NCBI RefSeq assembly: GCF_000002425.4
Contig: NC_037254.1
Location: 14,853,850 to 14,917,849, forward strand
Length of the DNA stretch: 64,000 nt
DNA from: Physcomitrium patens
Taxonomy: Eukaryota > Streptophyta > Bryopsida > Funariales > Funariaceae
Reading direction: 5' to 3'
A model generated the notes under the pieces. It made no database searches. It saw only the letters and a list, made by a program, of their open reading frames with translations, and was not told the DNA's origin. Every line of letters starts with the position of its first letter. Within the stretch, counting starts at the first letter, position 1. The translations under genes were made by a program, and so were the position numbers. Of the stretch, positions 2,737 through 38,479 are shown piece after piece.

Positions 2737-2741
2737 GGTCC

Positions 2742-3749
2742 CTATTGTAGCTGGACGTATTCGTTTTCCGACATACTGTCTTCTTTGACAGCCGTACTCC
2801 TCATTTTGTAGTTACGTCGCTTCTTTGGACAATGTTGAGCAGTGTGCTTAGGTTCTCCACAATATAAGCACAATCCTTCTTGTCGACGACGAGACTTTTC
2901 TTGCTCAGTAAGAGGTTTGAAACGTACCGCATCAATTTGCATATCTTCTACTTCCGAAGGTATGTGTTGAGGAGACGTCGGTGTTGCCATTGAATTGTAG
3001 TAACGTTGAGGCCCACTTGTGCGACTCTCGGATCAAAATTCAAAAAGTCGATTGTTGCACTTCACAGCAAAGTCAATTGCTTGACTCAATGTTTGAGGAT
3101 TAGGTAAATTAAGCATCAATTTCTTTACCTCATATTGTAATCCGTAGAGAAATTGACTCACAAGTGCGGCATCATCCCACTTGATATCAGTTGCAAGTTG
3201 TCGAAATTGCGAAGCATATAATGTTACTGATCGATTGCCTTGTCGTAAAATACGGATCTTGTTGGTTGCAACACGAATTGCATCATGTTCTCCAAACATG
3301 GATCGAAACTCCACCAAAAAAGCCTCCAGATTATCCAATATTGGATCTCGTCATTCAAGAAAAGATGAAAACCATGACAATGCTGAACCTGAAAGAAGTG
3401 TACCAATGAATCTTACTTGTGACCCTGGAGTTGGATAGCTCTGGGGTTGAAGTTCAATCACTAGTTGGACCTGATTGATGAATCCTCGAAACTTGGATCT
3501 GGTACCATCAAACTTCTCGGGCAAGGCAACTCTCGGTTCTCTAACACTCGAAGGGTGTTCCATTCTGGGAGAAGGGACATGGTTTGGTGCAGATGTTGAA
3601 GCAGCTCCAATCATCTCTATATCTTCACTTCCTACCATTCTTGTTGCTCCTTGTGGTGGTAAATTGAGTTGATGCATCGCAAGCATTAACTCCCTCAATT
3701 GTTCTTGCATCTGTGCCATTGCACTCTTCATTTCAACAAGCTCTGCCAT
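2742..3749 (-). pseudogene. gag: gypsy gag of copy A, broken by two stops
   Basis: Capsid/nucleocapsid protein of the retrotransposon. I start it at the ATG at 3749 (MAELVEMKS), conserved in copy B at 35596. It has a methionine/glutamine-rich N-terminal helix, a retrotransposon gag domain in the middle, and a CCHC zinc knuckle near the C-terminus (CLYCGEPKHTAQHC, CX2CX4HX4C). Two in-frame stops break it: one near 3351, where copy B has a glutamine codon, and a TGA near 3033, where copy B has CGA (arginine). It ends in CAA TAG at 2742, which overlaps the -1 pol frame. With gag broken and pol open, this copy could move only with gag from elsewhere. Confidence 0.88.
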
Positions 3750-3834
3750 AGTAGCACTTAGAAAAGAGAAGATGTCTAACAACGCTCAAAACAAATAGAA
3801 GAGAGGAATTGATAACAAAGAAAATACTAAGAAC

Positions 3835-3940
3835 AATATCAGTTTAAAAGAGGGTAATCCGCAACTTCTAATGCGCTTATGTCTTATCAAGAAAAAGGGG
3901 TAATCCACTCTTAATCAAGAAAAGACAAAGCTCTCATATT
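3835..3940 (-). ncRNA. Structured leader element, one unit (copy A)
   Basis: A unit of about 106 nt between the PBS and gag. The ends are AATATCAG and CTCATATT (plus strand), a closing stem with one mismatch. Inside are two copies of a GGTAATCC core, each in a weaker hairpin. It corresponds to 35682-35786 in copy B and to the three units 32831-33204 in copy C. Confidence 0.6.
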
Positions 3941-3948
3941 GTAAGTGT

Positions 3949-3959
3949 ACTCTTGTCAA
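3949..3959 (-). promoter_or_regulatory. Self-complementary primer-binding site (copy A)
   Basis: The plus-strand bases ACTCTTGTCAA lie two bases inside the 5' LTR. Their complement occurs at 4128-4138 in the LTR, and the 11-nt match is perfect. The first base of that LTR segment is 31 nt from a TATATATA box (4162-4169), the expected transcript start. No complete tRNA primer match is seen at the LTR edge. Confidence 0.75.
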
Positions 3960-3961
3960 TC

Positions 3962-4491
3962 TGTCAGGGACAAGAACTCGATGAAAGCTAAAGAGTAAGT
4001 GAGACTTTTCTCAAAAAGAAATAGGACAAAATAGAAATATGTATATTAAGAAAGAAACTGGAATGGCTATTGCCAAAATACAAGAAAACTAGAGACCCTT
4101 GAAACTAGACTAGAAGCAAGAAAGGAGTTGACAAGAGTGAAGAGGGCTTCACTCTTGCCTCTATATATACTATCTAACTAGAAGCCACGTGGCGATGTTC
4201 TATAAGACCTCCAATATATGTTGACTTTCTAGGCCACATGCCTTTGCTTGCAAGGCAAGTTTTCTATGGATGGACCACGTAGTTAGCTTGTTCTTTAAGC
4301 TTCCAATATGTGTGGCACATGGCTAACTTGTTGACCAAGTTTCTAACCTAAAAGTCAACTATAGACTCCTATAAAGTCAAAGCAGCGTCTATGAAGCTTC
4401 TAAGAAGCTTCTCTAAAAGATATTACACAATTAACCTACTTTTACATACTTTTATCTATTCATATAGGTAATTATATGTATGTCCGTGATA
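3962..4491 (-). repeat. 5' LTR of gypsy copy A, 530 bp
   Basis: Starts TGTCAGGG and ends CCGTGATA (plus strand), the second end having decayed from TGACA. It aligns with the 552-bp LTRs of copy B, with some small differences. It holds a TATATATA box (4162-4169) and a near-perfect inverted repeat at 4130-4159 that spans the inferred transcription start. Confidence 0.92.
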
Positions 4492-10432: not shown

Positions 10433-10435
<3 letters not shown>

Positions 10436-10470
<35 letters not shown>

Positions 10471-10545
10471 CATATATATATATATATATATAATTCATAT
10501 ATATATATATATATATAATTCATATATATATATATATATATAATT
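10436..10545. repeat. AT microsatellite with a 25-bp higher-order unit
   Basis: A run of AT dinucleotides followed by three units in which AATTC interrupts (AT)n at 10467, 10492 and 10517, a spacing of exactly 25 bases. Confidence 0.85.
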
Positions 10546-19645: not shown

Positions 19646-19811
19646 TGTTGATCAATCTACTCTAGATGATCATGATATGGACGAACTGAGATCCGGACTT
19701 AGCGCCGAACTCTCAGGAACTAAACTCTTGTGCTTAAGACTGCGAACTTACAGTTGCAGAATGTAAGCAATGTTTGGTCATGCTGAAATCACTGTTTTGT
19801 TCTTTTTCTCA
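19646..19811 (+). repeat. 5' LTR of the copia element, about 166 bp
   Basis: From TGTTGATC to TTTTTCTCA. It matches 38311-38479 over nearly its whole length, from ATCTACTCTAGATGATCATG to TTCTTTTTCTCA, with scattered changes and a small insertion in the 3' copy. The left boundary is uncertain by a few bases. Confidence 0.75.
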
Positions 19812-19823
19812 TGGTATCAGACC
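19812..19823 (+). promoter_or_regulatory. tRNA-iMet type primer-binding site (copia)
   Basis: TGGTATCAGACC directly follows the LTR. It matches the plant initiator-Met PBS TGGTATCAGAGC at 11 of 12 bases. It contrasts with the gypsy copies here, which lack such a site. Confidence 0.85.
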
Positions 19824-20089
19824 AGAAGTTCTTCCCCTCTTCATTTCTTGTTTTTCTAACATTGCTTACTTCCCTTGGTTGTAATGCTAACCATTGACTC
19901 ATTACAGCTTCGTATTCGATACACATTCTCGATCAAGTATTATTTTTTCTCTTCTCCTGATGTCACATGATGTCATCTTGTCACAATGAGTGATATCATT
20001 TTGAGATCCAGCAGACTCTCGATTCTTTACAGGCTCTCATTCGTATTATTTTCAGAACTAGCCTTTTTTGCCTAGATCCATTGACCAAG

Positions 20090-20743
20090 ATGAGTAACTT
20101 GGAAACAATTTGCTCGAAAGAGCCGATGCTCACTGGTCCGAAAAATTACAAGCACTGGGCTATTACTCTCCAGAGCATATTTGAAAAAGAGGATTTGTGG
20201 GACTTTATCGAACCACAACCGATCACCACTGCATCGTCATCCACAGACCCGCCATCGAAAACAGAGTTCGAACAGCCTAACACAGACGTCACTCGATGGC
20301 GAAAGCGACGAGCTAAAGCCATGATTCAACTCTCACTCACTCCAGATCTGCGCTACAATATTATCGATATCCCAGATCAACGAGACGCTTGGCAAGCACT
20401 CAGCACTAAGTATCCCACCAATACTATTTCAGATATCATGGTGGTCCTGAATTGCTGGGAGAACTTCCGAATGGGAGAGTTACAGGATTTAGCCACCTTC
20501 ATACAGCAACTAAATGACATTATCCGCGACCTGATCCGCGACCTGAAATCAATCAAGCAATCTAACGAGGTTGTCATACATAAAATTTTGAATAGATTAC
20601 CTTGCAGTTTTGACAAGCTTGTTTCACAAATCCAGTTCGAGAAAGAGATTCCAAGCCTACAGGAACTCTGGAATCGGCTACACATGGAGGAGACTAACGC
20701 TATCTTACGCGATCACATGAGACACATGACAAAGCACTCATGA
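20090..20743 (+). CDS. gag: Copia gag (UBN2-type), frame still open
   Basis: A 217-aa gag N-terminal and middle region from the ATG at 20090. It shows the copia gag hallmarks: LTGPKNYKHWAITLQSIFE near the start, a central AKAMIQLSLTPDLRYNI, DAWQALSTKY, and ILNRLPCSFDKLVSQI toward the end. It stops at 20743 without a CCHC knuckle, so the C-terminal part is lost or lies in another frame downstream. That this frame is open while pol is ruined may be chance. Confidence 0.85.
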   Translation: MSNLETICSKEPMLTGPKNYKHWAITLQSIFEKEDLWDFIEPQPITTASSSTDPPSKTEFEQPNTDVTRWRKRRAKAMIQLSLTPDLRYNIIDIPDQRDAWQALSTKYPTNTISDIMVVLNCWENFRMGELQDLATFIQQLNDIIRDLIRDLKSIKQSNEVVIHKILNRLPCSFDKLVSQIQFEKEIPSLQELWNRLHMEETNAILRDHMRHMTKHS

Positions 20744-23446: not shown

Positions 23447-23998
23447 TGTCAAGGACAAAGACTCGATGAGGGAAAATATACACAAAAAGGCTATCTCGAT
23501 ATAATAAGTCAAAATATAAACAAGTAGGTATATTAAAAGGAAACTGGAATGGCTATTGCCACAAGACAAGAAACTAAAGACTCTTGAATCTGGACTAGAA
23601 GCAAGAAAGGAGTTGACAAGAGTGAAGAAGCCTTCACTCTTGTCTCTATATATACTATCTAACTAGGGGCTACGTGGCGACGTTCTATAGGACCTCCAAT
23701 ATGTGTTGACTTTGTAGGACACATGCCTTGACTTACAAGGCAAGTTTTTCTACGTGTGGGCCACATAGTTAGCTTGATCTTCAAGCTAACAACATGTGTG
23801 GCACATGGCCAACTTGTTGACCACGTTTCTAATCTAAAAAGTCAATTAAAGACACCTATGAAGTCAAAGCAACGTCTAGGAAGTTTCTAGGAAGCTTTTA
23901 TATTAAATATTATAGAATTAACTTACTTTTATCTACTTTTACTTACTTCTACCTATTTCTATATGTAATTATTAGCTTACATGATTATGGCCGTGACA
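23447..23998 (-). repeat. 3' LTR of gypsy copy B, 552 bp
   Basis: TGTCAAGG to CCGTGACA on the plus strand. It contains a TATATATA box (23647-23654) and a perfect 13-bp inverted repeat with a 4-nt spacer (23615-23644). Confidence 0.95.
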
Positions 23999-24012
23999 TT
24001 ACCCCCCCTTCT
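23999..24012 (-). promoter_or_regulatory. Polypurine tract, copy B
   Basis: On the minus strand AGAAGGGGGGGTAA directly precedes the 3' LTR. This is the expected position and composition for the plus-strand primer. Confidence 0.85.
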
Positions 24013-24039
24013 AGAGACGAGTTCCACGAGGAGCAGTCA

Positions 24040-24462
24040 TCATATGTTGAGGAAATCTATGATGCGACGAATTGTATTCGCCACATACTCTGATCTATGT
24101 TCTCTTCGAAGATGATTGATAGGCCCTCTCAACCATCGGTAGTGTCCCATACCAGGGCGGGAAGACCACCCAATTATTTGATCATTGTTGAGGCCTTCGT
24201 AACTTCCTTCGAATAGAATATTTGGAACACCATCAGGAGTTGTTTCTACCTCTAGCAAAATCACCAAACATCGGGAGTCCCTTCCCAAATCGTGATACCA
24301 AACGCGTTGTATCTCACCATCTATTCGAGGAAGAACATGTCATTCTTGAAGATCTTCATCTCGATTGCGTCGTCTTGAAGGTTGTGACAATCGTAATGTC
24401 TCGTTCGGCAGGTCAACAAATGAAGGTTCTTGAGTTGAATCTACTAGTTGTTGGCTCTCCAT
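24040..24462 (-). pseudogene. Accessory ORF between pol and 3' LTR (copy B)
   Basis: A 141-codon frame from ATG 24462 to 24040 with one internal TGA (about codon 41); the 3' part from 24288 is open. The start is MESQQ, followed by a basic patch (SRRRNRDED) and a conserved core: LVILLEVE, then HYRWLRGPINHL and a C-terminal helix ending in RRIIDFL. The same order with conserved residues occurs in copy C (27688-28035) at the same place. I know no matching domain. Having the same orientation as gag-pol, it could be expressed from a spliced or internal message; function unknown. Confidence 0.7.
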
Positions 24463-24556
24463 CTAATTAGCGTCACAAATGCAAAGAAGTTACAAACAAG
24501 GATAGGAAATTGAATGTTATCTTGCCTCAATCTTGTCTCTTTTATAAGAGAGATTT

Positions 24557-26518
24557 TCATCTTGGTTTTGATGGATGTCGTTGATGAAAAACTTTGACTT
24601 TAGCTGATGCATTTGCTAGATTCCTGGATGGTTCCTATGTGCGTTCACTAATATCATATCCGCGCCAATGAACAAGATATTCCAGCTTATTTCGGCGCCG
24701 CCTTGAGTCTAATATCTCTTCCACCTCAAATTCTTCATTATTATCTATTTCTATAGGAGGCGGTGGCATTTGTCTTCTTCCTTGTATATCCACTGTCTTA
24801 TATGGTTCAAGAAGAGACACGTGGAATACAGGATGGATCTTCATTGACTCTGGTAGATGTAACCGATATGCAACTGGGTTGATCTGTTCAGAAACAAAAA
24901 AGGGGCCAAACCTACGATAGTCCAACTTGTCACAAGGTCGAGTAGTCTTGATATTGCGACGAAGTAGCCATACCTTATCATCCACGTTGAGTTGTGGTTG
25001 CTCCTTACGATATAGATCTGCGTTTATCTTTTGTCGTTCTTGAGCTTCTTTCAATTGCGTCTTCATTATTGCATGTAACTCTGACAACTGATTTGCCATA
25101 TCTTCTGCTGCAGGATTATCAACTTTTGAAAAATCAAAAGTATCAAGTCGTGGATGATAGCCATAATTGGCAAAGAAAGGTGTTTGTTGCGTGGAAGAAT
25201 GTACCGTATTATTATAAGCAAACTCTGCCAATGGCAGAAGGGTTGTCCAATCATCTTGTTGGTAGTTGATAGTACACCTTAAATATTGCTCCAAGACTTG
25301 GTTTACGAGCTCTGTTTGTCCATCAGTTTGAGGATGGAAAGCCGAAGATAGCTTTATGTCCATTTTTAAAATCTTGAAAAGGGTCCTCCAAAATCTTGAC
25401 ACAAATTGAGTTCCCCTATCCGATATGACATCTTTAGGTAATCCATGATAGCGATAGATATTATCAATGAAAAGCTTAGCTGTTTCTTCACCTGTGATAG
25501 ATTTTGTACATGGCACAAAATGTGCCATCTTGGTGAAACGATCTACTATCACAAATATAGAATCATAAGATCTTGAGCTTGGAACATCTGTGATGAAATC
25601 CATAGAAACAGAAGACCATGGTTGCTCTGGTATAGGTAATGGCTGAAGAAGTCCGTAAGGTCGATGACGAGGAATTTTTGATCTTGAACAAATATCACAT
25701 GATTGTACAAAGTCTTTGACTGACTTCCACATTTGTGGCCACCAAAAATCTCTTGATATGAATTCCAAAGTCTTATTATATCCAAAGTGCCCTGCTGCTG
25801 GAAAGTCATGATGTGCTTGAAGAACACGTAAACGTGCTTCTCCTTCTGGAACATATAGGCGTCCTTCAAAATATAATAGATTATTCTTGAACTCGAACTT
25901 AGAAGGATCATGAGACTTAAAAGAATTATTCTCGATATCATGAACAAGAGGGTTTGAGGACGTACTGGACTGGATTTGCTTGAGAAAAGTTGAATCAACC
26001 GTCAATGTTGATTTCATTGCTCGGAGATGAAATTGCTCCGGTTTCAAGAGGACCGTTCTTTGTTGTTCAAAAGCTGCATCTCTTTCTTTTGGTGCAAAAT
26101 AAGAACGTCTAGACAGGGCATCGGACAAACCTTGTTGTTTTCTTGGCCGATAAGTGATAATGAACTCGAATCTTGATAAAGACATACTCCAACGAGCTTG
26201 ACGACGATTCAATACGCGTGTTGACATGAAATACTCGAGGTTCTTGTGATCTGTATACACAGTGACTGGACTAGAAGCGCCTTCTAGATAATGACGCCAT
26301 TCTTGAAAGGAATCCACGATCGCAAGAAGTTCTTTATCGTGGATCTCATAATTGATCTCGGCTGCTGAGAATTTTCTTGAATGAAAAGCTATCGGATGAA
26401 GTTTGTCATCTAATCCCATTTGTGATAAAACTGCACCCAAGGCAAAATCTGATGCATCTGTTTCCATAAAAAACTGCCTTGGAAAAGTCAACACGATATA
26501 AGACTGGTGCAGAGACAA
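24557..26518 (-). pseudogene. pol: gypsy pol 3' part of copy B: RNase H, integrase, chromodomain
   Basis: Open from about 26518 to a TAG at 24635, then readable to the original stop at 24557. RNase H begins with METDASDFALGAVLSQ. The integrase has the HHCC zinc region (HHDF...CDICSR) and the catalytic core (SMDFITD, VDRFTKMAHF, SDRGTQF, a later glutamate). The C-terminus is a chromodomain (EVEEILDSR, LVHWRGYD). The stop replaces the tryptophan codon of the chromodomain ERTWEP motif. One extra base near 26467-26476, compared with copy A, puts this part out of frame with the RT. Confidence 0.92.
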
Positions 26519-27165
26519 ACGATGTCTTCAAGGCTTCAAATGCTGCTTCCGCTTCTTGATTCCATTGGAATTTATCTTTACTAGTCAAGCGTGTAAGTGG
26601 GGCTACAACTCGTGAGAAATCTTTGATGAAGATCCGATAGTAATTGGCAAATCCCAAGAAACATTGGACATCTCTTACTATCCTTGGAATCTTCCAATCC
26701 ATGATTGTTTGGACTTTCTTAGAATCCATCATGAGACCATCATTTGAAATGATATATCCTAAAAAGTCAACTTGAGTAGTGTAAAATACACACTTTTCCA
26801 TCTTGGCGTACAATCTTGCATCTCTAAGTTTTTGTAATACTTGACGAACATGTATTTCATGTTCTTCGACGTTCTTAGAATAGATCAGGATATCGTCTAG
26901 ATAGCAGACGACAAAATTGTCTAAGAATTCACGAAATAAATCATTCATGAGATGTTGAAAAGTAGCTGGTGCATTCGTGAGTCCAAAGGGCATGACATTA
27001 TATTCGAAATGTCCATACCTGGTTCGAAACGCAGTCTTCCATTCATCTCCTTCTTTGATCCGTACTAGATTATATGCTCCTCTTAGATCTATTTTTGTAT
27101 AGATCTTAGCTTGATTCAACTGGTCAACGAGTCCTGATATCAAAGGTAATGGATACCTGTTCTTG
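26406..27165 (-). pseudogene. pol: gypsy RT of copy B, 3' portion
   Basis: RT palm and fingers from just after the copy C insertion point. It includes YNVMPFGLTNAPA, the catalytic YLDDILIYSK and FLGFANYYRIF. The frame runs past the RNase H junction in the wrong register because of the one-base insertion near 26470. The N-terminal half is at 33706-34586, across copy C. Confidence 0.92.
27161..27165. repeat. Target-site duplication of copy C, left
   Basis: TCTTG here and TCTTA at 33701-33705 flank copy C. Copy A, uninterrupted at this place, has TCTTG, so the right copy has mutated. Confidence 0.9.
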
Positions 27166-27637
27166 TGTCATGGACACAAAATACAGACTTGTAATCTAAC
27201 AAGAAGTTCAAGAAGAAGTGGCAGAACTAGATTAAACAGATGAGTACAAGAACAACACCAGAAAGGTGAGCTAGAACTCCAAGAGATGTGTTGTCGAGAC
27301 TGAAGAACTCTTCAGCCTCGACTCCTATATATACTACTGGCTTATGGTTCTAAGGAAGCGCATCAAGAAGCTTCCTAAGAACTATGAAGCTTCTCAAGCA
27401 ACTACCTAAGAGCTAGGAAGCTTCTCAAGTAACTTCCTAGAATCTACTAGAATATTCTAAGAATCTTCTAGAGCCTTATAAGAGAATCTTTAGGGAATCT
27501 TCAAAGAATCTTTAGGGAATCTTTAAAGAATATTCTAAGAGAATATTCAAGGAATCTTCTGGAAGTTTCTAGAGACTTCTTTCTAGAAGGTTCTAGAAAC
27601 TTATCTCTAGAAAGGTCTAAGGACTATGTCCCTAACA
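27166..27637 (-). repeat. 3' LTR of copy C, 472 bp
   Basis: TGTCATGG to CCTAACA. TATATATA at 27326-27333; hairpin arms 27293-27305 and 27310-27322. The right half (27400-27600) is rich in repeated AGAATCTT/TTCTAGA-like short motifs. Confidence 0.96.
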
Positions 27638-27651
27638 TCACCTCCTCCTTT
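27638..27651 (-). promoter_or_regulatory. Polypurine tract, copy C
   Basis: AAAGGAGGAGGTGA on the minus strand, ending exactly at the 3' LTR. Confidence 0.88.
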
Positions 27652-27687
27652 AGCTTCGAGGTCTCGGAGAAGCAATGTTATCGTCAA

Positions 27688-28035
27688 TCAATACCAGCGC
27701 AAAAAAATGAAGATCTGTCGCATAACCTCTGCTATGAACTCCAATTGTTGTTCACGAGGCAAGTCATTCAATGGTCCTTGAAGCCAACGGTAGTGGCTTA
27801 CGCCTTCAACTTCTGACCAAGCATGAACCTCCGTGTCTTCATTGTGAAATTGTCGTGCAAACACTCCTTCTGGCTAACCATTGTAGGCAGGCTCGACCTC
27901 AAATACAATCACCAGCGATCTGTTGCTCGGAATCCTTCGACGTCGTCGTGGTGCAGGCGGTTCTTCATCTCGCGGTCGTCTTTGTGAGCTAGTTGCTTGA
28001 GATGACATGACAAGTGTAGTATCTTGGCTATCCAT
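27688..28035 (-). pseudogene. Accessory ORF between pol and 3' LTR (copy C)
   Basis: A 116-codon frame from ATG 28035 with one internal TAG (codon 54). It begins MDSQD, has an arginine-rich stretch (APRRRRRIPSNR), then LVIVFEVE, and after the stop HYRWLQGPLNDL and a hydrophobic C-terminal helix ending IFIFLRWY. The frame lies about 145 bases beyond the pol stop. The order and spacing of LVI-EVE, HYRWL-GP-N and the final helix match copy B (24040-24462), although the two elements belong to different families. I recognise no known domain. Confidence 0.72.
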
Positions 28036-28180
28036 ATTCAAAGGCTAAAACAATAAGAACAAACTTGGGCTACTAACAAAGTTCTATGCTATCTTGGAGA
28101 GAATGACTACATCAACTATGGATTTTGGTAGTGCTCTCTCCTCTTTTCTGTTTTTTGGATGAGCAAGCTTCAGTAAGAAG

Positions 28181-31100
28181 CTATCGTCGAACCGGCTTGG
28201 GTTTCTCAGGATATCGTCGATGAAACTCCTGTACCTTTTGCAACGCATTCGCAAGATTTTTGGCCGGCTCCCATGTTCGTTCATTAATATCGTAACCGCT
28301 CCAATGCACAAAGTATTTTAATTTATCCCGTCTTTGCCGTGAATCCAGGACCTTTTCTACCTCGTATTCTTCGTGGTTTTCTATTTCTATGCTAGGTGGT
28401 GGACATTGTACTCTTCCAGGAAAAGACGATTCTCGATAAGGCTCCAACAAAGAAACATGAAAGACAGGATGTACCTTCATAGTAGCTGGTAACTCCAAAC
28501 GATACGCTACAGGATTGATCTGCTTCTGGATAACAAATGGTCCCAATCTCCGATAGTCCAATTTGTCACATGGCCGCTTGGTCTTAATATTTCGTCGAAG
28601 CAGCCAAACATTGTCTCCAATCGTGAATTTAGATGCCTGATTCCGAAATTTATTCGCGGACGCCTTGTAAGATTCTTGGGCAGTTTGCAATTGAAGCTTC
28701 AATATAGTTTGAAGTTGCGAAAGCTCCTTCACCAATCCTTCAGCTGCCGGATTGTTAATCGTTGACGAACTCCATAAGTCAAGCTTCGGATGGTATCCAT
28801 AATTAGAAAAGAATGGCGTTTGTTGAGTTGACGCATGAAGGGTGTTGTTATATGCGAACTCGGCTAGCGGTAGATATGCGGCCCAATCATCTTGTTGATA
28901 GTTGATGGTGCAACGTAAATATTGCTCTAAAAGTTGATTCACCTGTTCTGTTTGGCCGTCCGTTTAAGGATGAAATGCTGAAGAAAGCTTGATATCCACC
29001 TTCAATATCTCAAAAAGAGATTTCCAAAACTTTGACACAAACTGGGTTCCTCGATCCGATACGATATCATCTGGTAGACCATGATATCGATACACATTAT
29101 CAAGAAAGAGTCTTGCTGTGTCTTCGCTTGACGATGTCTTCTTGCAAGGGACAAAATGTGCCATCTTTGTAAGCCGATCTACGACAACAAAAATGCTGTC
29201 AAATGAATTCGATGGTGGTAGATCCGTAATAAAGTCCATGGAAACCGAAGACCATGGTCGGCGCGGAATAGGCAATGGCTGTAGAAGTCCATAAGGCCGA
29301 TGTCGAGGATTTTTGGATCTTGAACAAATGTCACAAGATACAACAAAATCTTTCACATCCTTCCACATTTGAGGCCACCAGAAGTCGCGGGAAATAAGTT
29401 CCAAGGTCTTATTGAATCCAAAATGTCCCGCAGCTGGAAAGTCATGACGAGATTGAAGAACTCGGAGTCGTGTTGGCCCTTTTGGGATATACAACCGCTC
29501 TTCGAAATATACTAGATCTCCTTCCATCTTGAATTTATCATGACTAGCATGTTGCTTGATATCAAGGGCTAGAGAATCTTCAATGGTTGCGGCCCATACC
29601 TGGTCGAGGAAGTCAGCATCAATTGGTACAATAGCTGCGTTGAGTCTAAATTTCTCTGGCTTCAACAATATCGTGCACTGTTGATCAAATGCTGCATCTC
29701 CAGCCTTTGGCGCGAGATATGATCTCCTTGATAATGCATCGGACAACTCTTGTTGCTTCCCAGGCCGATAAGTAATAACAAAGTCGAACCTGGATAGCGA
29801 CATACTCCACCGAGCTTGACGCCGATTCAAAACCCGAGTCGACATAAAATACTCCAAATTCTTGTAATCCATATATACGGTCATTGGATGTGCAGTTCCT
29901 TCGAGAAAGTGGCGCCACTCTTGGAAAGAATCTACTATAGCAAGGAGTTCCTTATCGTGGATCTCATAGTTGATCTCAGCAGCAGAGAATTTTCGAGAAT
30001 AGAACGCAACTGGATGGAGCTTCTCATCTACGCCCATCTGTGAAAGTACAGCTCCCAAAGCAAAATCCGAAGCATCTGTCTCCAAATAAAAGGCCTTTGT
30101 AAAGTCCGGATGTACCAAGATTGGAGCTATAGTAAATACCATCTTCAAATCTTGGAATGCTTTTTCTGCAATAGGTCCCCATTCGAGCTTGTCCTTGCAC
30201 GTTAACCGAGTGAGGGGGGCAGCAACTTGAGAATAATTCTTGATGAAGATCCGATAGTAGTTAGCAAATCCAAGAAAACATTGTACGTCCCTAACCGTCT
30301 TCGGAACTTCCCAAGACATGATTGCTTCCACCTTCTTTGGATCCATCTTCAATCCTTCCGTAGTCGCGATGAATCCCAAAAACTCCATCTCAGTTTGGTG
30401 AAATAAGCACTTCTCCAATTTGGCATAGAGTCCTCGCTCCCGTAGTTTTTTGAGTACCAGACGAACGTGCTTCTCATATTCTTCCTCGTTCTTAGAAAAT
30501 ATCAAAATATCATCTAGATAGATGACAACAAAATCGTCTAGATGCTCTCGAAAGATGTCATTCATCATGTGTTGAAAGACCGCTGGAGCATTAATAAGAC
30601 CAAATGGCATGACATTGTATTCAAAATGGCCATACCTTGTTCGAAAAGCTGTCTTCCATTCATCTCCTTCCTTGATTCGCACAAGGTTGTAAGCTCTCCT
30701 TAGGTCAATCTTTGTAAAGATCCTTGCACGCCCAAGTTGTTCTAGAAGACCAGAGATCAAAGGCAGTGGGTAGCGATTCTTTTTTGTCACCTTGTTGAGA
30801 CCTCGATAGTCCACGCACATCCGTAGTGAGCCATCTTTCTCCTTCATAAATAAGATTGGTGCCCCAGTTGGCGACTTCGAATGACGGATGAAGTTCTTGG
30901 CTAGATTCTCGTCAATGTACTTCCGCAACTCAATCAACTCCGTCTGCGACAAATTGTAGATTGGTCCAAAAGGTGGTTGTGCTCCTTCTTGCAATTCAAT
31001 GGCACAGTCATAGGGTCGATGCTCTGGCAGCATATCAGCATTCTTTTTTTCAAAGACATCTTTGAATTTTTCATACTGCTTTGGAATAACCAAAGTCGGA

Positions 31101-31304
31101 GTTGCATCTTCTCAAGTCGGAGTTGCAAAGATGACAAGAGGTGTATTTTGCTTGGCTTCCTTCATGAATGCCCTTGCACCTATAAACAAGGATTTGTTTC
31201 TAGACTTTGTCTTGGCAGATTCTACCTTCAAGGAGTTTGTTGGAAATGTCACTTTCCGCAACTTCCAATCTATCAATGGATTATATCTATCAAGCTAAGA
31301 TAGT
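28181..31304 (-). pseudogene. pol: gypsy pol of copy C: RT, RNase H, integrase, chromodomain
   Basis: Main frame 31093-28964 continues in the same frame to 28181 after one TAA at 28964, where the expected codon is CAA in the DGQTE region. RT motifs are VDYRGLN, MPFGLINAPA and YLDDILIFSK; RNase H is ETDASDFALG; integrase has HDF..H and CDICSR, then VDRLTKMAHF and SDRGTQF. It ends in a complete chromodomain (VEKVLDSR, FVHWSGYDINERTWEP). Between 31304 and 31093 at least three more stops break the link to the protease, two of them in the segment after the protease. A 12-bp GTCGGAGTTGCA is repeated at about 31096 and 31116. Confidence 0.93.
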
Positions 31305-31741
31305 CACAAAATGATAGAACATGAAGGGATCTTAATAACATTAAACACAATATTGCTCTCATGGTTTTCAAGACGTACCTTCAATGGTTTAGTTTCATGG
31401 ATAACATTGCCCGAAGACAATGGTCGTCTATCTATGACTTCTACATAGACAGGCTTAAGTTTCTTTACAAGAGAAATATTGTGAAGCTTGGCAAACTCTT
31501 CATCTATAAAGCAAGCGGATGCACCCGAGTCTAATAAAGCATCGACTTGTAGTTCTTGAATACCCAGATGTAAAGGTACCATAAAACAATCTGAAGGTTG
31601 AGCTGAGAGAAAGGGACCTTGATTAATTTTGGATGTTGAGATGTCTAGCCGCACGGTCTCTATTGTGGCTGGGCGTCCTTGTTTTCCTGCATGCTTGTAC
31701 TCCTGAGTCTTGTTATTTGAGGCTTCTGTTTCTTCCGACAA
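31305..31741 (-). pseudogene. gypsy protease of copy C (start of pol)
   Basis: Aspartic protease region with the [13 protein letters not shown] active-site motif. The frame is open upstream into gag (to 31741), overlapping it by about 80 nt in the -1 register. It ends at stops after PSCSIIL at 31304. Confidence 0.88.
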
Positions 31742-32709
31742 TCTACAGCTTTATGGCCCGCTTCTCCGCAATATAAACACAAGTTTTGTTCAAACCGTCG
31801 CTTCCTTTCCTCAGCTGTGAGGGGTTTGAAATGTACCGCATCAATTTGCATGGGTTCAGGATCTGTGGAGTGATTCTCTGGACCTTTTGAAAATGTAACA
31901 AATGCTCCATCATTTCTCCAGCCTGATCGTCTTTCTTGTCGTAATTCAAAGAGGCGGTTGTCACAAATAATTGCCTGAGATATAAGTTCTTCTAAAGTAT
32001 CCGCCTTAGGCATGGTGATCAATAAGTTCTTGACATCATCTCTCAGTCCATATCAAAATCGTGTCATGAACGCCTTATCATTCCAATCAAGATCACATGT
32101 AAGCTGTTGAAATTCTGCAGCATAGATTGCAGCAGAACGTGATCCTTGTCGCAAATTTTGTATCTTTCTTTCAGCCACTCTTTCTCGATTGCTATCTCCA
32201 AACGCAGCAGTAAGTCTCTCTATGAAAGCCTCTAGGTCGTACAATATTGGAGAATCCTTCTCCAATAGTGGAGCAAACCAAGAGCGAGCATTTCCTGATA
32301 GAAGAGTACCTATGAAAGCAACCTGGGTAAATCCATTCGGATAACGAGAAGGGCATAGGCGTAGGTAAAGCCGTACTTGTTGCACAAAACCTCGAAAGTT
32401 GGCTCTTGTTCCGTCAAACTTGTCTGGCATACTCGCTTTTGGTTCTTTCGTACTAATCCTTGAAGTATCTATAAGGGTCGTATGTGACACATGTCTTGCT
32501 TCTCTCAGTTGAATAATCTCTTGTTGTAGGCTATGAATTTCGCGTCTAGCTTCTTCGGTCACTAGATCAATTTGAGGTTCTTTACTTGAATTGCGAAGAA
32601 ATGCAATCTCCTTTCGTACACTATTCATAAGAGCTTGAAGATCTGCAAGAGTTGCCACTCTATTGTCTACTTGTGGAGATGCACTGTCTATGACCTGGTC
32701 TACTTCCAT
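31660..32709 (-). pseudogene. gag: gypsy gag of copy C, one stop
   Basis: From ATG 32709 (MEVDQVIDS). An N-terminal helical part of about 110 residues, the capsid region (PDKFDGTRANFRGFVQQVRL, FIGTLLSGNA, LEAFIERLTAAFGD, IQNLRQGSRS), one TGA near 32053 where CGA is expected, then a zinc knuckle [14 protein letters not shown] and a CAA TAG end. The N-terminal part differs from the copy A/B family, whereas the capsid and knuckle regions are clearly related. Confidence 0.9.
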
Positions 32710-32830
32710 ATTTAGAGAATAGATGGATTAAAATTTTGAGAGAAGAAGAAATTACTATGTCTCTTGGAGAAAATTGTAGCACTACCTGTCACTAAAACCT
32801 ACTCGAAGAAAAAGAAAAAAAAACACTAAA
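32710..32830 (-). other. Leader of copy C between gag and the structured units
   Basis: AT-rich untranslated leader with no recognisable element. Confidence 0.5.
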
Positions 32831-33204
32831 CGATTTCAGTTTTAGAGGAGGGTAATCCGCAACCTCTAAAAATGCCTCAATGCTTTCGAGAAGAGGGGTA
32901 ATCCGCACTCTATCAAAAAGGCAAAGCTCTGAAATCGATGTTAACAGTCTTTTCTACTAGCTATGCTAAACAAAAAGAAGGAATTAATATCAGTCCAAGA
33001 GAGGGTAATCTGCAACCCTTAGAACGCTCAAGTATCTCCAAAGAAAGGGGTAGTCTACTCTCTGCCTCAAAGAACTAAGCTCTGATATTGTGATTGAGAA
33101 AATATCAGTTTAGAGGAAGGTAATCCGCAACCCCTAAAGCGCTAGAATACCTTCAAGAAGAGGGGTAATCCGCTCTCAAACAAGAAGGATTCAGCTCTGA
33201 TATT
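32831..33204 (-). ncRNA. Three structured leader units of copy C
   Basis: Units at 32831-32937, 32986-33089 and 33101-33204 (107, 104 and 104 nt). Each is closed by an inverted repeat: AATATCAG/CTGATATT in two, CGATTTCAG/CTGAAATCG in the third, so both arms changed together. Inside each are two GGTAATCCGC-type cores. In the first unit the first core lies in the loop of a perfect 9-bp stem, TTTTAGAGG/CCTCTAAAA. The second unit's internal stem is weak. Likely packaging, priming or dimerisation structures of the retrotransposon RNA, but this is inference. Confidence 0.7.
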
Positions 33205-33215
33205 AAGATAAAGGT

Positions 33216-33226
33216 AGTCTCGACAA
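33216..33226 (-). promoter_or_regulatory. Self-complementary primer-binding site (copy C)
   Basis: AGTCTCGACAA (plus strand) two bases inside the 5' LTR. It is perfectly complementary over 11 nt to 33354-33364 in that LTR, which starts 32 nt from a TATATATA box. Pairing does not extend at either side. Confidence 0.78.
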
Positions 33227-33228
33227 AC

Positions 33229-33700
33229 TGTCACGGACACAAAATACAGACTTGAAATCTAACAAGAAGTTCAAGAAGAAGTGGCAGAACTAGATTAAAC
33301 AGATGAGTACAAGAACAACACCAGAAAGGTGAGATAGAACTCCAAGAGATGTGTTGTCGAGACTGAAGAACTCTTCAGCCTCGACTCCTATATATACTAC
33401 TGGCCTATGGTTCTAAGGAAGCGCATCAAGAAGCTTCCTAAGAACTATGAAGCTTCTTGAGCAACTACCTAAGAGCTAGAAAGCTTCTCAAGTAACTTCC
33501 TAGAATCTACTAGAATATTCTAAGAATCTTCTAGAGCCTTATAATAGAATCTTTAGGGAATCTTCAAAGAATCTTTATAGAATCTTTAAAGAATATTCTA
33601 AGAGAATATTCAAGGAATCTTTTGGAAGTTTCTAGAGACTTCTTTCTAGAAGGTTCTAGAAACTTGTCTCTAGAAAGGTCTAAGGACTATGTCCCTAACA
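33229..33700 (-). repeat. 5' LTR of copy C, 472 bp
   Basis: TGTCACGG to CCTAACA. TATATATA at 33389-33396, hairpin 33356-33385, inferred transcript start at 33364. Confidence 0.96.
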
Positions 33701-33705
33701 TCTTA
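33701..33705. repeat. Target-site duplication of copy C, right
   Basis: TCTTA, one base different from TCTTG at 27161-27165. The copy B coding sequence continues directly after it. Confidence 0.9.
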
Positions 33706-34586
33706 ATTGTGATCTTGTTGAGTCCTCGATAATCAACACATATTCGTAAAGATGCATCTTTTTTCTTTACGAATAGAATTGGAGCTCCTGCTGGAGATTT
33801 TGAATGGCGTATGAAATTCTTCGCTAAATTCTCGTCAATATATGTCTTGAGTTCAGCCATCTCATCTTGCGATAAACTGTAAATTGGTCCAAATGGTGGC
33901 TGAGTTCCTTCCTTGAGGTCGATTGAACAATCATATGGGCGATGCTCAGGAAGAATATCTGCATTCTTTTTCTCAAAAATGTCTTGATACTCCTCATATT
34001 GACTTGGAATGCCACTTGAAGTCTTTATGTTTTCAGAAATAGGTGCAGCATAAATAGCAAAAGTTGATCCTTCTTTTGCTGCGTGTATAAATACTTTTGC
34101 ACCTATCAATACGGGTTTTACTATACTAGACTTATAATTTTTTACTTGGTTGGTAGAACTATTAATAACGCTCTGGAAAAAGTCAAGTTTACGCGAATTC
34201 CAATCTATTCGAGGGTTATATTTTTCTAGCCAGGATAAACCTAAAATAACTGGATTGGACGGGGATTTAATTATGTTAAAAGCTATGTAGCTATCATGAC
34301 CATCTATTGTTACTTTTATAGGATGAGTTTTATGAGTGACATCTCCAGAAGACAATGGACGACCATCTATGACTTCTACATGTACTGGTTTAGGTTTCTG
34401 TACAAAAGGTATTTTACGACTTTTAACAAATTGTTCATCTAAAAAACATGCTGAGGCTCCCGAATCTAATAAAACAGAGGCTTTGTAATTCTTAGGTCCT
34501 AAATATAAGTCTATTATAAAACAAGAAGAGGGTTGTGAGGAGAGGATAGGACCTTCATTAGGAATTGTACAAGGTTCCAGCTGCAT
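33706..34586 (-). pseudogene. pol: gypsy pol 5' part of copy B: protease and RT N-terminus
   Basis: Open frame from ATG 34586. Protease motif [15 protein letters not shown] near residue 40, the linker, then RT with [12 protein letters not shown] cut by copy C. This copy has an ATG at the start of pol that copies A and C lack (GTG there), so that ATG is probably accidental. The frame is -1 relative to gag, whose stop is at 34592. Confidence 0.9.
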
Positions 34587-34591
34587 GGTCC

Positions 34592-35596
34592 CTATTGTAG
34601 CTGGACGAATCCGTTTTCCGACATGTTGTTTTCTTTGACCGTCGTACCCCTCATTTTATAGTTGCGTCGTTTCTTTGGACAATGTTGAGCAGTGTGCTTA
34701 GGTTCTCTGCAATATAAACATAATCCTTCTTGACGACGACGAATCTTTTCTTGCTCAGTTAGGGGTTTAAAACGTACCGCGTCAATTTGCATGTCTTCTA
34801 CTTCCGAATGTACGTTTGGCAAAGATGTTGATGTTGCCATTGAGTAATAACGTTGAGGTTTCCGTGAATGATTTTCGGATCGAAATTTGAAAAGTCGATT
34901 ATCACATTTTACCGCAAAATCGATTGCTTGACTCAAAGTTTGAGGATCAGGTAAGTTGAGCATCAATTTCTTTACTTTGTATTGCAATCCATAAAGAAAT
35001 TGACTGATGAGTGCAGCCTCATCCCACTTGATGTCAATTGCAAGTTGTCAAAATTGTGAAGCATATACTGTTACTGAGCGATTTCCTTGTCGCAGAATTC
35101 GGATCTTATTTGTTGCAATACGAGTTGCATCGTGTTCACCATACATAGATCGAAACTCCGCCAAAAAAGCTTCCAAATTGTCCAATATTGGATTTCGTTG
35201 TTCAAGAAAAGACAAAAACCACGATAATGCAAAACCAGAAAGTAGAGTGCCAATAAATCTGACTTGTGATCCTAAAGTTGGATAGCTTTGCGGTTGAAGT
35301 TCAATTGCCAATTGTACTTGATTGATGAACCCTCGAAACTTTGATCTCGTACCATCAAATTTCTCGGGTAAGGCAATTCTTGGTTCTCTAGTGCTTATAG
35401 GGTGTTGTACAATTGGGGAAGGAACGTGATTTGTTGTAGATATTGAAGCAGCTCCGATCATCTCTATATCCCCACTTTTTGCTATTCTTGTTCTTTCCTG
35501 TGTTGGTGAATTGAGTTGATGCATCGCAAGCATTAACTCCCTCATTTGCTCTTGCATTTGTGCCATTGCACTCTTCATTTCAACAAGCTCTGCCAT
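34592..35596 (-). pseudogene. gag: gypsy gag of copy B, one stop
   Basis: From ATG 35596 (MAELVEMKSAMAQMQEQ), with the capsid region (PEKFDGTRSKFRGFINQVQL, FIGTLLSG) and a zinc knuckle CLYCREPKHTAQHC. One TGA near 35048 replaces the CGA seen in copy A. It ends in CAA TAG at 34592. Confidence 0.9.
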
Positions 35597-35681
35597 AATG
35601 ACACTAAGAAGAAAAATTTGTTTGATACTGCTCAAGACAAAAGAAAAGAAAGACTTGATAACAAAGAAGATACTAAGAACA

Positions 35682-35786
35682 ATATCAGTTTAGAAGTGGG
35701 TAATCTGCACACTTCTAATACGCTTATGTCTTGTTAAGAGAAATGGGTAATCCATTCTTACTCAAGAAAAACAAAACTCTGATATT
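35682..35786 (-). ncRNA. Structured leader element, one unit (copy B)
   Basis: Closing stem AATATCAG (35682-35689) and CTGATATT (35779-35786), perfect and extendable by one pair. Inner stem TTAGAAGTG/CACTTCTAA (35691-35699, 35710-35718), a perfect 9 bp with a GGTAATCTG core in the loop. A second inner stem AATGG/CCATT encloses GTAAT. Same architecture as in copy C with different stem sequences. Confidence 0.7.
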
Positions 35787-35794
35787 GTAAGTGT

Positions 35795-35805
35795 ACTCTT
35801 ATCAA
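35795..35805 (-). promoter_or_regulatory. Self-complementary primer-binding site (copy B)
   Basis: ACTCTTATCAA (plus), two bases inside the LTR. It pairs with 35974-35984 over 11 nt; the one difference from copy A becomes a G-U wobble in RNA. Confidence 0.72.
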
Positions 35806-35807
35806 TC

Positions 35808-36359
35808 TATCAAGGACAAAGACTCGATGAGGGAAATTATACACAAAAAGGCTATCTCGATATAATAAGTCAAAATATAAACAAGTAGGTATATTAAAAG
35901 GAAACTGGAATGGCTATTGCCACAAGACAAGAAACTAAAGACTCTTGAACCTGGACTAGAAGCAAGAAAGGAGTTGACAAGAGTGAAGAAGCCTTCACTC
36001 TTGTCTCTATATATACTATCTAACTAGGGGCTACGTGGCGACGTTCTATAGGACCTCCAATATGTGTTGACTTTGTAGGACACATGCCTTGACTTACAAG
36101 GCAAGTTTTTCTACGTGTGGGCCACATAGTTAGCTTGATCTTCAAGCTAACAACATGTGTGGCACATGGCCAATTTGTTGACCACGTTTCTAATCCAAAA
36201 AGTCAATTAAAGACACCTATGAAGTCAAAGCAACGTCTAGGAAGTTTCTAGGAAGCTTTTATATTAAATATTATAGAATTAACTTACTTTTATTTATTTT
36301 TACTTACTTCTACCTATTTCTATATGTAATTATTAGCTTACATGATTATGGCCGTGACA
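35808..36359 (-). repeat. 5' LTR of gypsy copy B, 552 bp
   Basis: TATCAAGG to CCGTGACA; the first G has mutated to A. TATATATA 36008-36015, perfect hairpin 35976-36005, inferred transcript start 35984. Confidence 0.95.
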
Positions 36360-37690: not shown

Positions 37691-37766
37691 AACTACATTA
37701 TTAACATCTCTTTTAAATTCAGCTATCCACTTCTTTCAAGCTTGAGACACAATTCTTTGGAATTGG

Positions 37767-37853
37767 AGAAGACATAATACTTGGTCACCAATTGTAGAAG
37801 ACATAATACTCGGTCACCAATTGTAGAAGACATAATACTTGGTCACCAATTGT
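37767..37853 (+). repeat. Three tandem 29-bp repeats
   Basis: Units begin at 37767, 37796 and 37825 (AGAAGACATAATACTTGGTC and nine more bases) and differ at a single T/C. They lie in the non-coding 3' part of the copia, before its 3' LTR. Confidence 0.9.
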
Positions 37854-38310
37854 AGAACTACAAATTAATTTTGGGACTATCACTTTATGTAGAAGAGTCT
37901 CTAAAATTCAGTACAAACATGGGACAAAACTTGGAAGTGCCGATAATTGCACCAAATTGTTATCCAAAGTGCACCTTCTTTGTGATGAATATACCAAGAT
38001 TCTGCAATTATCAAGACCATCTTTGCTAAGCTCCTGAAAACAAATTGATGCAGATTGCTCAAGCCCAGTAACCTCTCAAAACTCAAGAAATTCATCATCA
38101 TTAATCCTCACAAAACAAACACTATGGAAAAAGAAACTCATGAGTAATAAAATATATGTGCATATAAATTGTCAAAGATGAATCACTATTATTATCTGCA
38201 AGAAGCTACCAGTTTTTAGAACTAAGGCTCTTAGAGTAATTGTAGTTCTTTTTGCAAAATCTTTTCGTAGATGATCTGGTAGTGAGGGAGGGTGTGGGAA
38301 CATCCATCCC

Positions 38311-38479
38311 TACTTATCATCTACTCTAGATGATCATGATATGGACGAATTGAGATCCGGACTTAGTGCCGAACTCTCAGGAACTAAACTCGTACTTAAG
38401 ACTGCGAGCTTACAATTGCAGAATGTAAGTAAGTTCAATATTTGGTCATGCTGAAATCTCTGTTTTATTCTTTTTCTCA
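38311..38479 (+). repeat. 3' LTR of the copia element, about 169 bp
   Basis: Matches 19646-19811. A purine-rich GAGGGAGGG just upstream (38284-38292) may be the polypurine tract. The copy has lost its TG start. Confidence 0.75.

Follow-up and report, generated by a model that had tools for sequence, protein, structure and literature searches.

Reverse transcription of the retrotransposon Tf1 is primed by 11 nt of its own RNA, which are cut off after nt 11. Beside the primer:PBS (primer-binding site) helix, Tf1 requires two further duplexes (PMC10085805). Among plants, Neumann et al. 2019 (PMC6317226) predicted self-priming for 12% of the elements in their survey, naming the TAR group of Ty1/copia and, in mosses and club-mosses, the majority of the Tcn1-clade chromoviruses. 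The rule applied in that survey was that sequence starting 0–5 bp past the 5' long terminal repeat (LTR) be complementary to this LTR over at least 10 bp; an aromatic cage was present in 95% of the Tcn1 chromodomains (PMC6317226). The PpatensLTR elements of Physcomitrium patens were grouped with Tcn1, and for a Selaginella element neither tRNA-priming nor self-priming evidence was found, according to the accessible part of the report (Novikova et al. 2010, PMC2864245). PpatensLTR2 is also named in a figure legend on Tf1/sushi relatives (PMC10085805). Among the gypsy families of the moss RLG1 is the most abundant; it carries a chromodomain and is expressed in protonema (PMC7466625).

We analysed a stretch of 64,000 nt of P. 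patens DNA (the window), which holds three elements, A, B and C, that resemble the Tcn1-clade moss chromoviruses (PMC6317226) in being chromodomain-type gypsy elements with a PBS unlike a tRNA 3' end and with complementarity to the LTR. With Tf1 and Tf2 of fission yeast (PMC10085805, PMC4600332) they share a self-primer at the RNA 5' end, which is predicted here, a PBS past a 5' LTR that ends in CA, and a chromodomain. Self-priming is very likely in A, B and C. It is of a type known before and predicted for their clade, and the suggestion of the initial annotation that it is new for plant LTR elements was wrong in view of the survey (PMC6317226). In the part of that paper available to us, the Tcn1 prediction rests on complementarity and is silent on TATA register, covariation and a hairpin in U3; A, B and C were analysed for all three.

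Layout of the elements and geometry of primer and PBS

All three elements lie on the minus strand. Element C is a Ty3/gypsy chromovirus (27166..33700; 5' LTR 33229..33700, 3' LTR 27166..27637) located inside element B and flanked by the target-site duplication (TSD) TAAGA/CAAGA. Element B, interrupted by C, extends over 23447..36359 (5' LTR 35808-36359, 3' LTR 23447-23998; TSD TTAAG/TCAAG), and in B as in C the two TSD copies are one transition apart. Element A is truncated by the left edge of the window (1-4491; 5' LTR 3962..4491). Pfam matches over the reading frames gave the gypsy order of pol (PR-RT-RNaseH-INT) in A, B and C, and in A and C the frames were seen to have rve downstream of RT and RNase H. 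Chromo and SH3_Tf2-1 domains were found in B and C, the chromodomain following the integrase, and A ends before the chromodomain region. By eye, the aromatic cage reads Y, W, Y in C and F, W, Y in B, where there is also a stop within the domain, at cage positions that we presume to be those of HP1. Ty1/copia elements have the integrase before the reverse transcriptase. The TAR-group Ty1/copia elements (Houba, Osr-1; PMC6317226) are like A, B and C in that self-priming in plants is predicted for them, but differ in having the copia rather than the gypsy domain order.

The PBS of C (TTGTCGAGACT, 33216..33226) starts after a spacer of 2 nt (33227..33228) and is the exact complement of AGTCTCGACAA at 33354..33364 within the 5' LTR, the predicted nt 1–11 of the RNA; the copy of this primer sequence in the 3' LTR is at 27291..27301. 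An exact match was likewise found in A, between TTGACAAGAGT (3949..3959) and ACTCTTGTCAA (4128..4138). The PBS of B (TTGATAAGAGT, 35795..35805) forms ten Watson-Crick pairs and one G-U pair, due to a single C-to-T change, with the same ACTCTTGTCAA primer at 35974..35984. The PBS starts 2 nt past the 5' LTR in each of the three elements, so that the rule of the survey, applied here, returned 11 bp at offset 2 for A and C and 10 bp plus one G-U for B. The primer begins with an A, which lies 32 nt (C) or 31 nt (A, B) from the first base of a TATATATA box (33389..33396 in C, 4162..4169 in A and 36008..36015 in B). Between the 11-mers of A and C there are three differences, each of them compensated in the PBS. 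The complementarity reported by the initial annotation was thus right to the base at every coordinate; the 2-nt offset and the TATA spacing of 31–32 were reproduced, and the primer sequences of the two families indeed differ.

The significance of the matches was estimated from 20,000 dinucleotide shuffles per LTR, allowing the PBS to start 0–5 nt from the LTR and taking no account of TATA register or of the concordance among families. A match of at least 11 nt was obtained with P values of 0.0004 for C and 0.0023 for A; by this measure there was no exact match in B.

Other parts of the window hold a copia-type gag frame (19994-20743, in the stretch 19651-20743) next to a sequence that occurs again at 38316-38479 with 90% identity, a cluster of short repeats that match themselves on both strands (10433-10545), and a tandem repeat with a 29-base period (37761-37857). 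There is also a folate-transporter gene, whose nearest named proteins are from mosses (Ceratodon 80%, Sphagnum 72%).

Primer and PBS in genomic copies and in relatives

Copies of each family were collected from the same genome. An exact 11/11 match was present in 18 of 20 members of the C family and a match with one G-U in the other two, through a change in the PBS (L050) or in the primer (L043); of the 20 regions fetched, 19 were counted together with C, L045 being without a match, and L001, which is C, was set aside, as were L002-L005, which are too short or are LTRs that lack the PBS. All ten rows of the A family, A included, were exact, in a search whose script required an exact primer. 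A first look gave 1,333 candidate A-type copies, and the 40 matches listed were all 100% identical (rounded) over 321 bases; these 40 A-type copies, near-identical across LTR, PBS and leader, are a very recent burst. The A-type copies are numerous, as is RLG1 (PMC7466625), and we infer from abundance, rather than from sequence comparison, that A is RLG1. In the B family, represented by B and 23 further copies, the primer was constant in 24/24, and the PBS was exact in 18, carried a G-U pair in four (B included, each by the identical C-to-T change) and was broken in two (L129, L149). The six PBS variants are all changed at one and the same C, one of them with a second change. Since among the 24 copies variation is confined to the PBS, the G-U of copy B looks like a recurrent change that is best read as decay; a reading of it as a functional variant is unsupported, as 18 of 24 copies are exact. 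The PBS variation of this family may reflect a decay hot spot, or mistakes in the copying of the RNA primer into DNA. A search of the genome for other families, with a fungal relative as query, listed 46 matches of 54–55% identity, two of which gave the loci L064 and L065.

Named relatives among the best 120 of 7,860 protein matches came from frogs, a Tremellales fungus and Planoprotostelium, and with L070 as query the chytrid Batrachochytrium was also named among the best 120 of 8,000. No seed plant was present in either set of 120, and no fern was named in the latter; the tree of the group was made without a seed-plant, Tf1 or other outside reference. A search of viral contigs for pol relatives found none. 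A scan of prokaryote assemblies yielded 41 contigs with related, eukaryote-type gypsy pol genes (L066-L106) in bacterial or archaeal genome records, which are contamination of the bins. The CAKZGI (Trichormus) bin accounts for eight of the 41; the fern Azolla is the host of Trichormus azollae. Should these contigs be of fern origin, which is a guess, the range of the group would take in ferns; a PCR survey had detected no member there, as far as the accessible text reports (PMC2864245).

The whole layout was recognized in seven of the 41 contaminant contigs (L066, L069, L070, L071, L072, L078 and L095). These share an LTR end TGACA (TAACA in L095), a 2-nt spacer, a PBS starting with TTG and a TATA distance of 32–33. 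The whole layout was absent from the other 34, some of which lack the 5' end and many of which are distant; L068 has only the primer and U3 arm (see below) of an LTR at the 3' end of the contig. A TATA-anchored scan of the 41 loci gave 25 matches (24 of them printed) versus 13 in the reversed sequences. Without the TATA rule the numbers were 32 and 28, that is, noise save for the same elements.

Together, A, B, C and the seven relatives have an offset of 2 nt and a TATA distance of 31–33, and contain five primer sequences: AGTCTCGACAA (C, L066), ACTCTTGTCAA (A, B), ACTCTTGATCAA (L069, 12 nt), AAGGCGAACAA (L070, L071, L078, L095) and AAGGTGAACAA (L072). Each of the five was matched by its own PBS, as expected if primer and PBS covary across family members. 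The fit of a PBS to its own primer was full (with one G-U in B), versus 4 to 10 positions with other primers, the value of 10 being that of L070/L072. For the four 11-nt primers, 77 of 77 cells of the primer:PBS helix were paired in 7 distinct rows (A, B, C, L041, L043, L050, L066, L070, L071, L072, L078 and L095, typed and with identical rows merged; L069, with its 12-nt primer, omitted). Changes on both sides occurred in 7 of the 11 pairs, which was reached by 1 of 500 shuffles, and the covariation score was 0.710 versus 0.232 for shuffled (0/500) and at most 0.201 for slid alignments, where the shuffles take no account of the relatedness of the rows. The number of further pair types was not unusual (58/500 shuffles). 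When RNA that begins at the predicted start and ends 130 nt beyond the PBS start was folded without constraints, the primer:PBS helix was present in the minimum-energy fold of nine of the ten elements, with mean pair probabilities of 0.90–0.96; it was absent from that of L095 (mean pair probability 0.60).

We consider Tf1-like self-priming, as put forward by the initial annotation, very probably the best explanation for A, B and C, supported by the covariation of primer and PBS, the fixed 2-nt offset, the near-fixed TATA distance and the predicted helix. By analogy with Tf1, the transcript would begin at the A located 31–32 nt from the first base of the TATA box, and its first 11 nt would fold back to pair with the PBS, which starts 2 nt past the 5' LTR. 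RNase H would then cut between nt 11 and 12, and the freed 11-mer would prime minus-strand DNA synthesis over the spacer into U5. Plus-strand synthesis would copy the primer into a new PBS, a renewal again modelled on Tf1, so that primer and PBS stay matched. A prediction from complementarity alone hereby becomes one backed by covariation, for very abundant and partly near-identical moss retrotransposons, and given the many copies in the moss, mapping of transcript ends can directly test it.

Hairpin around the predicted transcript start

In 10 of 11 loci a segment of U3, from about −21 to −8 relative to the predicted start, pairs with about −5 to +9, whereby nt 1–9 of the primer are largely paired. 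This upstream arm resembles the PBS (a PBS mimic) and pairs with four of the five primer sequences; it is located at 33372..33385 in C (−21 to −8, partner −5 to +9; 27309-27322 in the 3' LTR), 35992..36005 in B and 4146..4159 in A. The hairpin score was reached by 0 or 1 of 300 shuffled stretches in each of the ten loci; in L069 the hairpin is absent. For the moss elements (10 chosen rows, 9 of them distinct) 96.8% of the cells were paired, with both-side changes in 12 cells and 3 of 14 pairs, and the covariation score was 0.335 versus 0.180 shuffled (0/500) and at most 0.151 slid. Neither the count of both-side-changed pairs (3 versus 2.7 shuffled) nor that of pair types (8 versus 8.3) was unusual, and the evidence from the moss alignment comes mainly from one contrast, that of A/B with C. 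In the second clade 98.3% of the cells were paired, with one compensated pair, which is not significant (100/500 shuffles). As a pairing in the elements seen, the start-site hairpin is well supported. Because reverse transcription apparently leaves the arm unrewritten from the primer, the joint change of arm and primer suggests selection on the pairing.

Folding energies were compared for nine elements, L070 being too near the contig end. Pairing of the 5' primer copy with the PBS yielded a gain of 9.2 to 17.1 kcal/mol. With the U3 arm attached to the same primer the gain was only 2.6 to 6.4 kcal/mol in eight of the nine, and 14.8 kcal/mol in L069. These calculated values suggest that the U3 arm hides the 3' copy of the primer. 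The hairpin could mark the copy that primes, because by energy the copies in the 3' LTR and in read-through transcripts would be hidden and the copy at the 5' end would be free. We tentatively propose, as possible rather than probable, that the hairpin gates self-priming by selecting which primer copy primes and which transcripts are copied. A correctly started RNA would have no mimic at its 5' end, leaving the 5' 11-mer free to prime; in the 3' LTR, and likewise in the 5' LTR when transcription reads through it, the mimic would be kept and the hairpin would hide the primer. If the hairpin acts in this way, it explains how an RNA with two primer copies uses only the 5' one. A literature search found no description of a start-site hairpin in U3 in titles and abstract openings, with hairpin text compared in PMC10085805 only and subscription papers mostly beyond reach; the matching hairpin around the start site is possibly new.

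Leader structure and explanations other than self-priming

Directly past the PBS, a leader stem was predicted in A, B and C. In C (33101..33204) it is formed by AATATCAG (33197-33204) and CTGATATT (33101-33108), and A differs by one base on the AATATCAG side. The stem bears on the question of whether a tRNA primes these elements, either initiator tRNA-Met, by pairing with TATCAGAGC at a distance of 13–14 nt from the PBS, or a fragment of a tRNA, by pairing with the PBS. The TATCAGAGC motif, which we take to resemble the plant tRNA-iMet site, is present at this distance in 16 of 18 C-family loci (TATCAAAGC in the other two), but it lacks the TGG needed to pair with CCA, and in C it constitutes one side of the predicted stem. 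It is better read as such than as a tRNA site, because in L066 both sides of the stem are changed (TATTGG/CCAATA), with the pairing kept and the likeness to the tRNA lost. The bases beside the LTR read GTTTG or GATTG, not TGG, and no TGG starts 0–5 nt from the LTR edge in any of 11 loci; an ordinary tRNA 3'-end site is therefore missing, as had been claimed from the sequence of the window. The PBS with its neighbours is complementary to tRNA genes over at most 7 nt, versus 11 nt to the LTR, in a sample of 20 genes fetched from 63 matches in the genome (7 isotypes, no tRNA-Met; L111 read on the wrong strand). Priming by a tRNA is, on these grounds, highly improbable.

The LTR 11-mer could also belong to a palindrome that acts at the DNA level, as a promoter or initiator element, its likeness to the PBS being incidental. 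This would account for the inverted repeat from about −21 to +9 that contains the 11-mer in 10 of 11 loci, and for the near constancy of the inner GAAG/CTTC across the 10 moss rows. A binding site should keep its letters, however, whereas here the letters vary between families and the pairing is kept, the PBS included; moreover, L069 has a 12-nt primer/PBS match without the palindrome. We regard this explanation as very unlikely. A chance match of primer and PBS is hardly credible. For a single 11-nt match in the 530-nt LTR of A the P value is about 0.002, and TATA-anchored matches alone are not rare, as the 25 versus 13 in the 41 loci indicate, but the seven relatives counted agree in LTR end, spacer, PBS start and TATA distance, and the covariation of primer and PBS sequences opposes chance. 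We therefore retain self-priming as the preferred explanation.

The duplexes that accompany the primer:PBS helix in Tf1 (the pretzel) were assessed as the number of 200 shuffles reaching the observed energy, in a model that does not include pseudoknots. The central duplex was predicted in A, B and C. For the duplex at the end of U5 the counts were 193 (C), 75 (A), 18 (B), 191 (L066), 3 (L069), 2 (L070), 6 (L071), 1 (L072), 11 (L078) and 98 (L095), so that it stands out in L069-L072 (1–6) and L078 and is marginal in B. The counts for the duplex downstream of the PBS were 20 (C), 174 (A), 185 (B), 57 (L066), 129 (L069), 2 (L070), 182 (L071), 8 (L072), 174 (L078) and 155 (L095); it stands out in L070 and L072, is marginal in C, and ranges from 57 to 185 in the other seven. 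Unlike Tf1 and Tf2, A thus shows no evident flanking duplexes, and those of B and C are marginal at best; the moss elements either differ from Tf1 in this respect or form the duplexes in a way that escapes this test.

Comparison of the leaders of B and C with Rfam gave nothing near the cut-off. The structured leader, at 33101-33204 in C, 3835-3940 in A and 35681-35786 in B, contains GGATTACC motifs, and the structure past the PBS possibly has a role in packaging or translation. Part of the leader of C is repeated downstream (32833-32921 versus 33102-33188, 81%).
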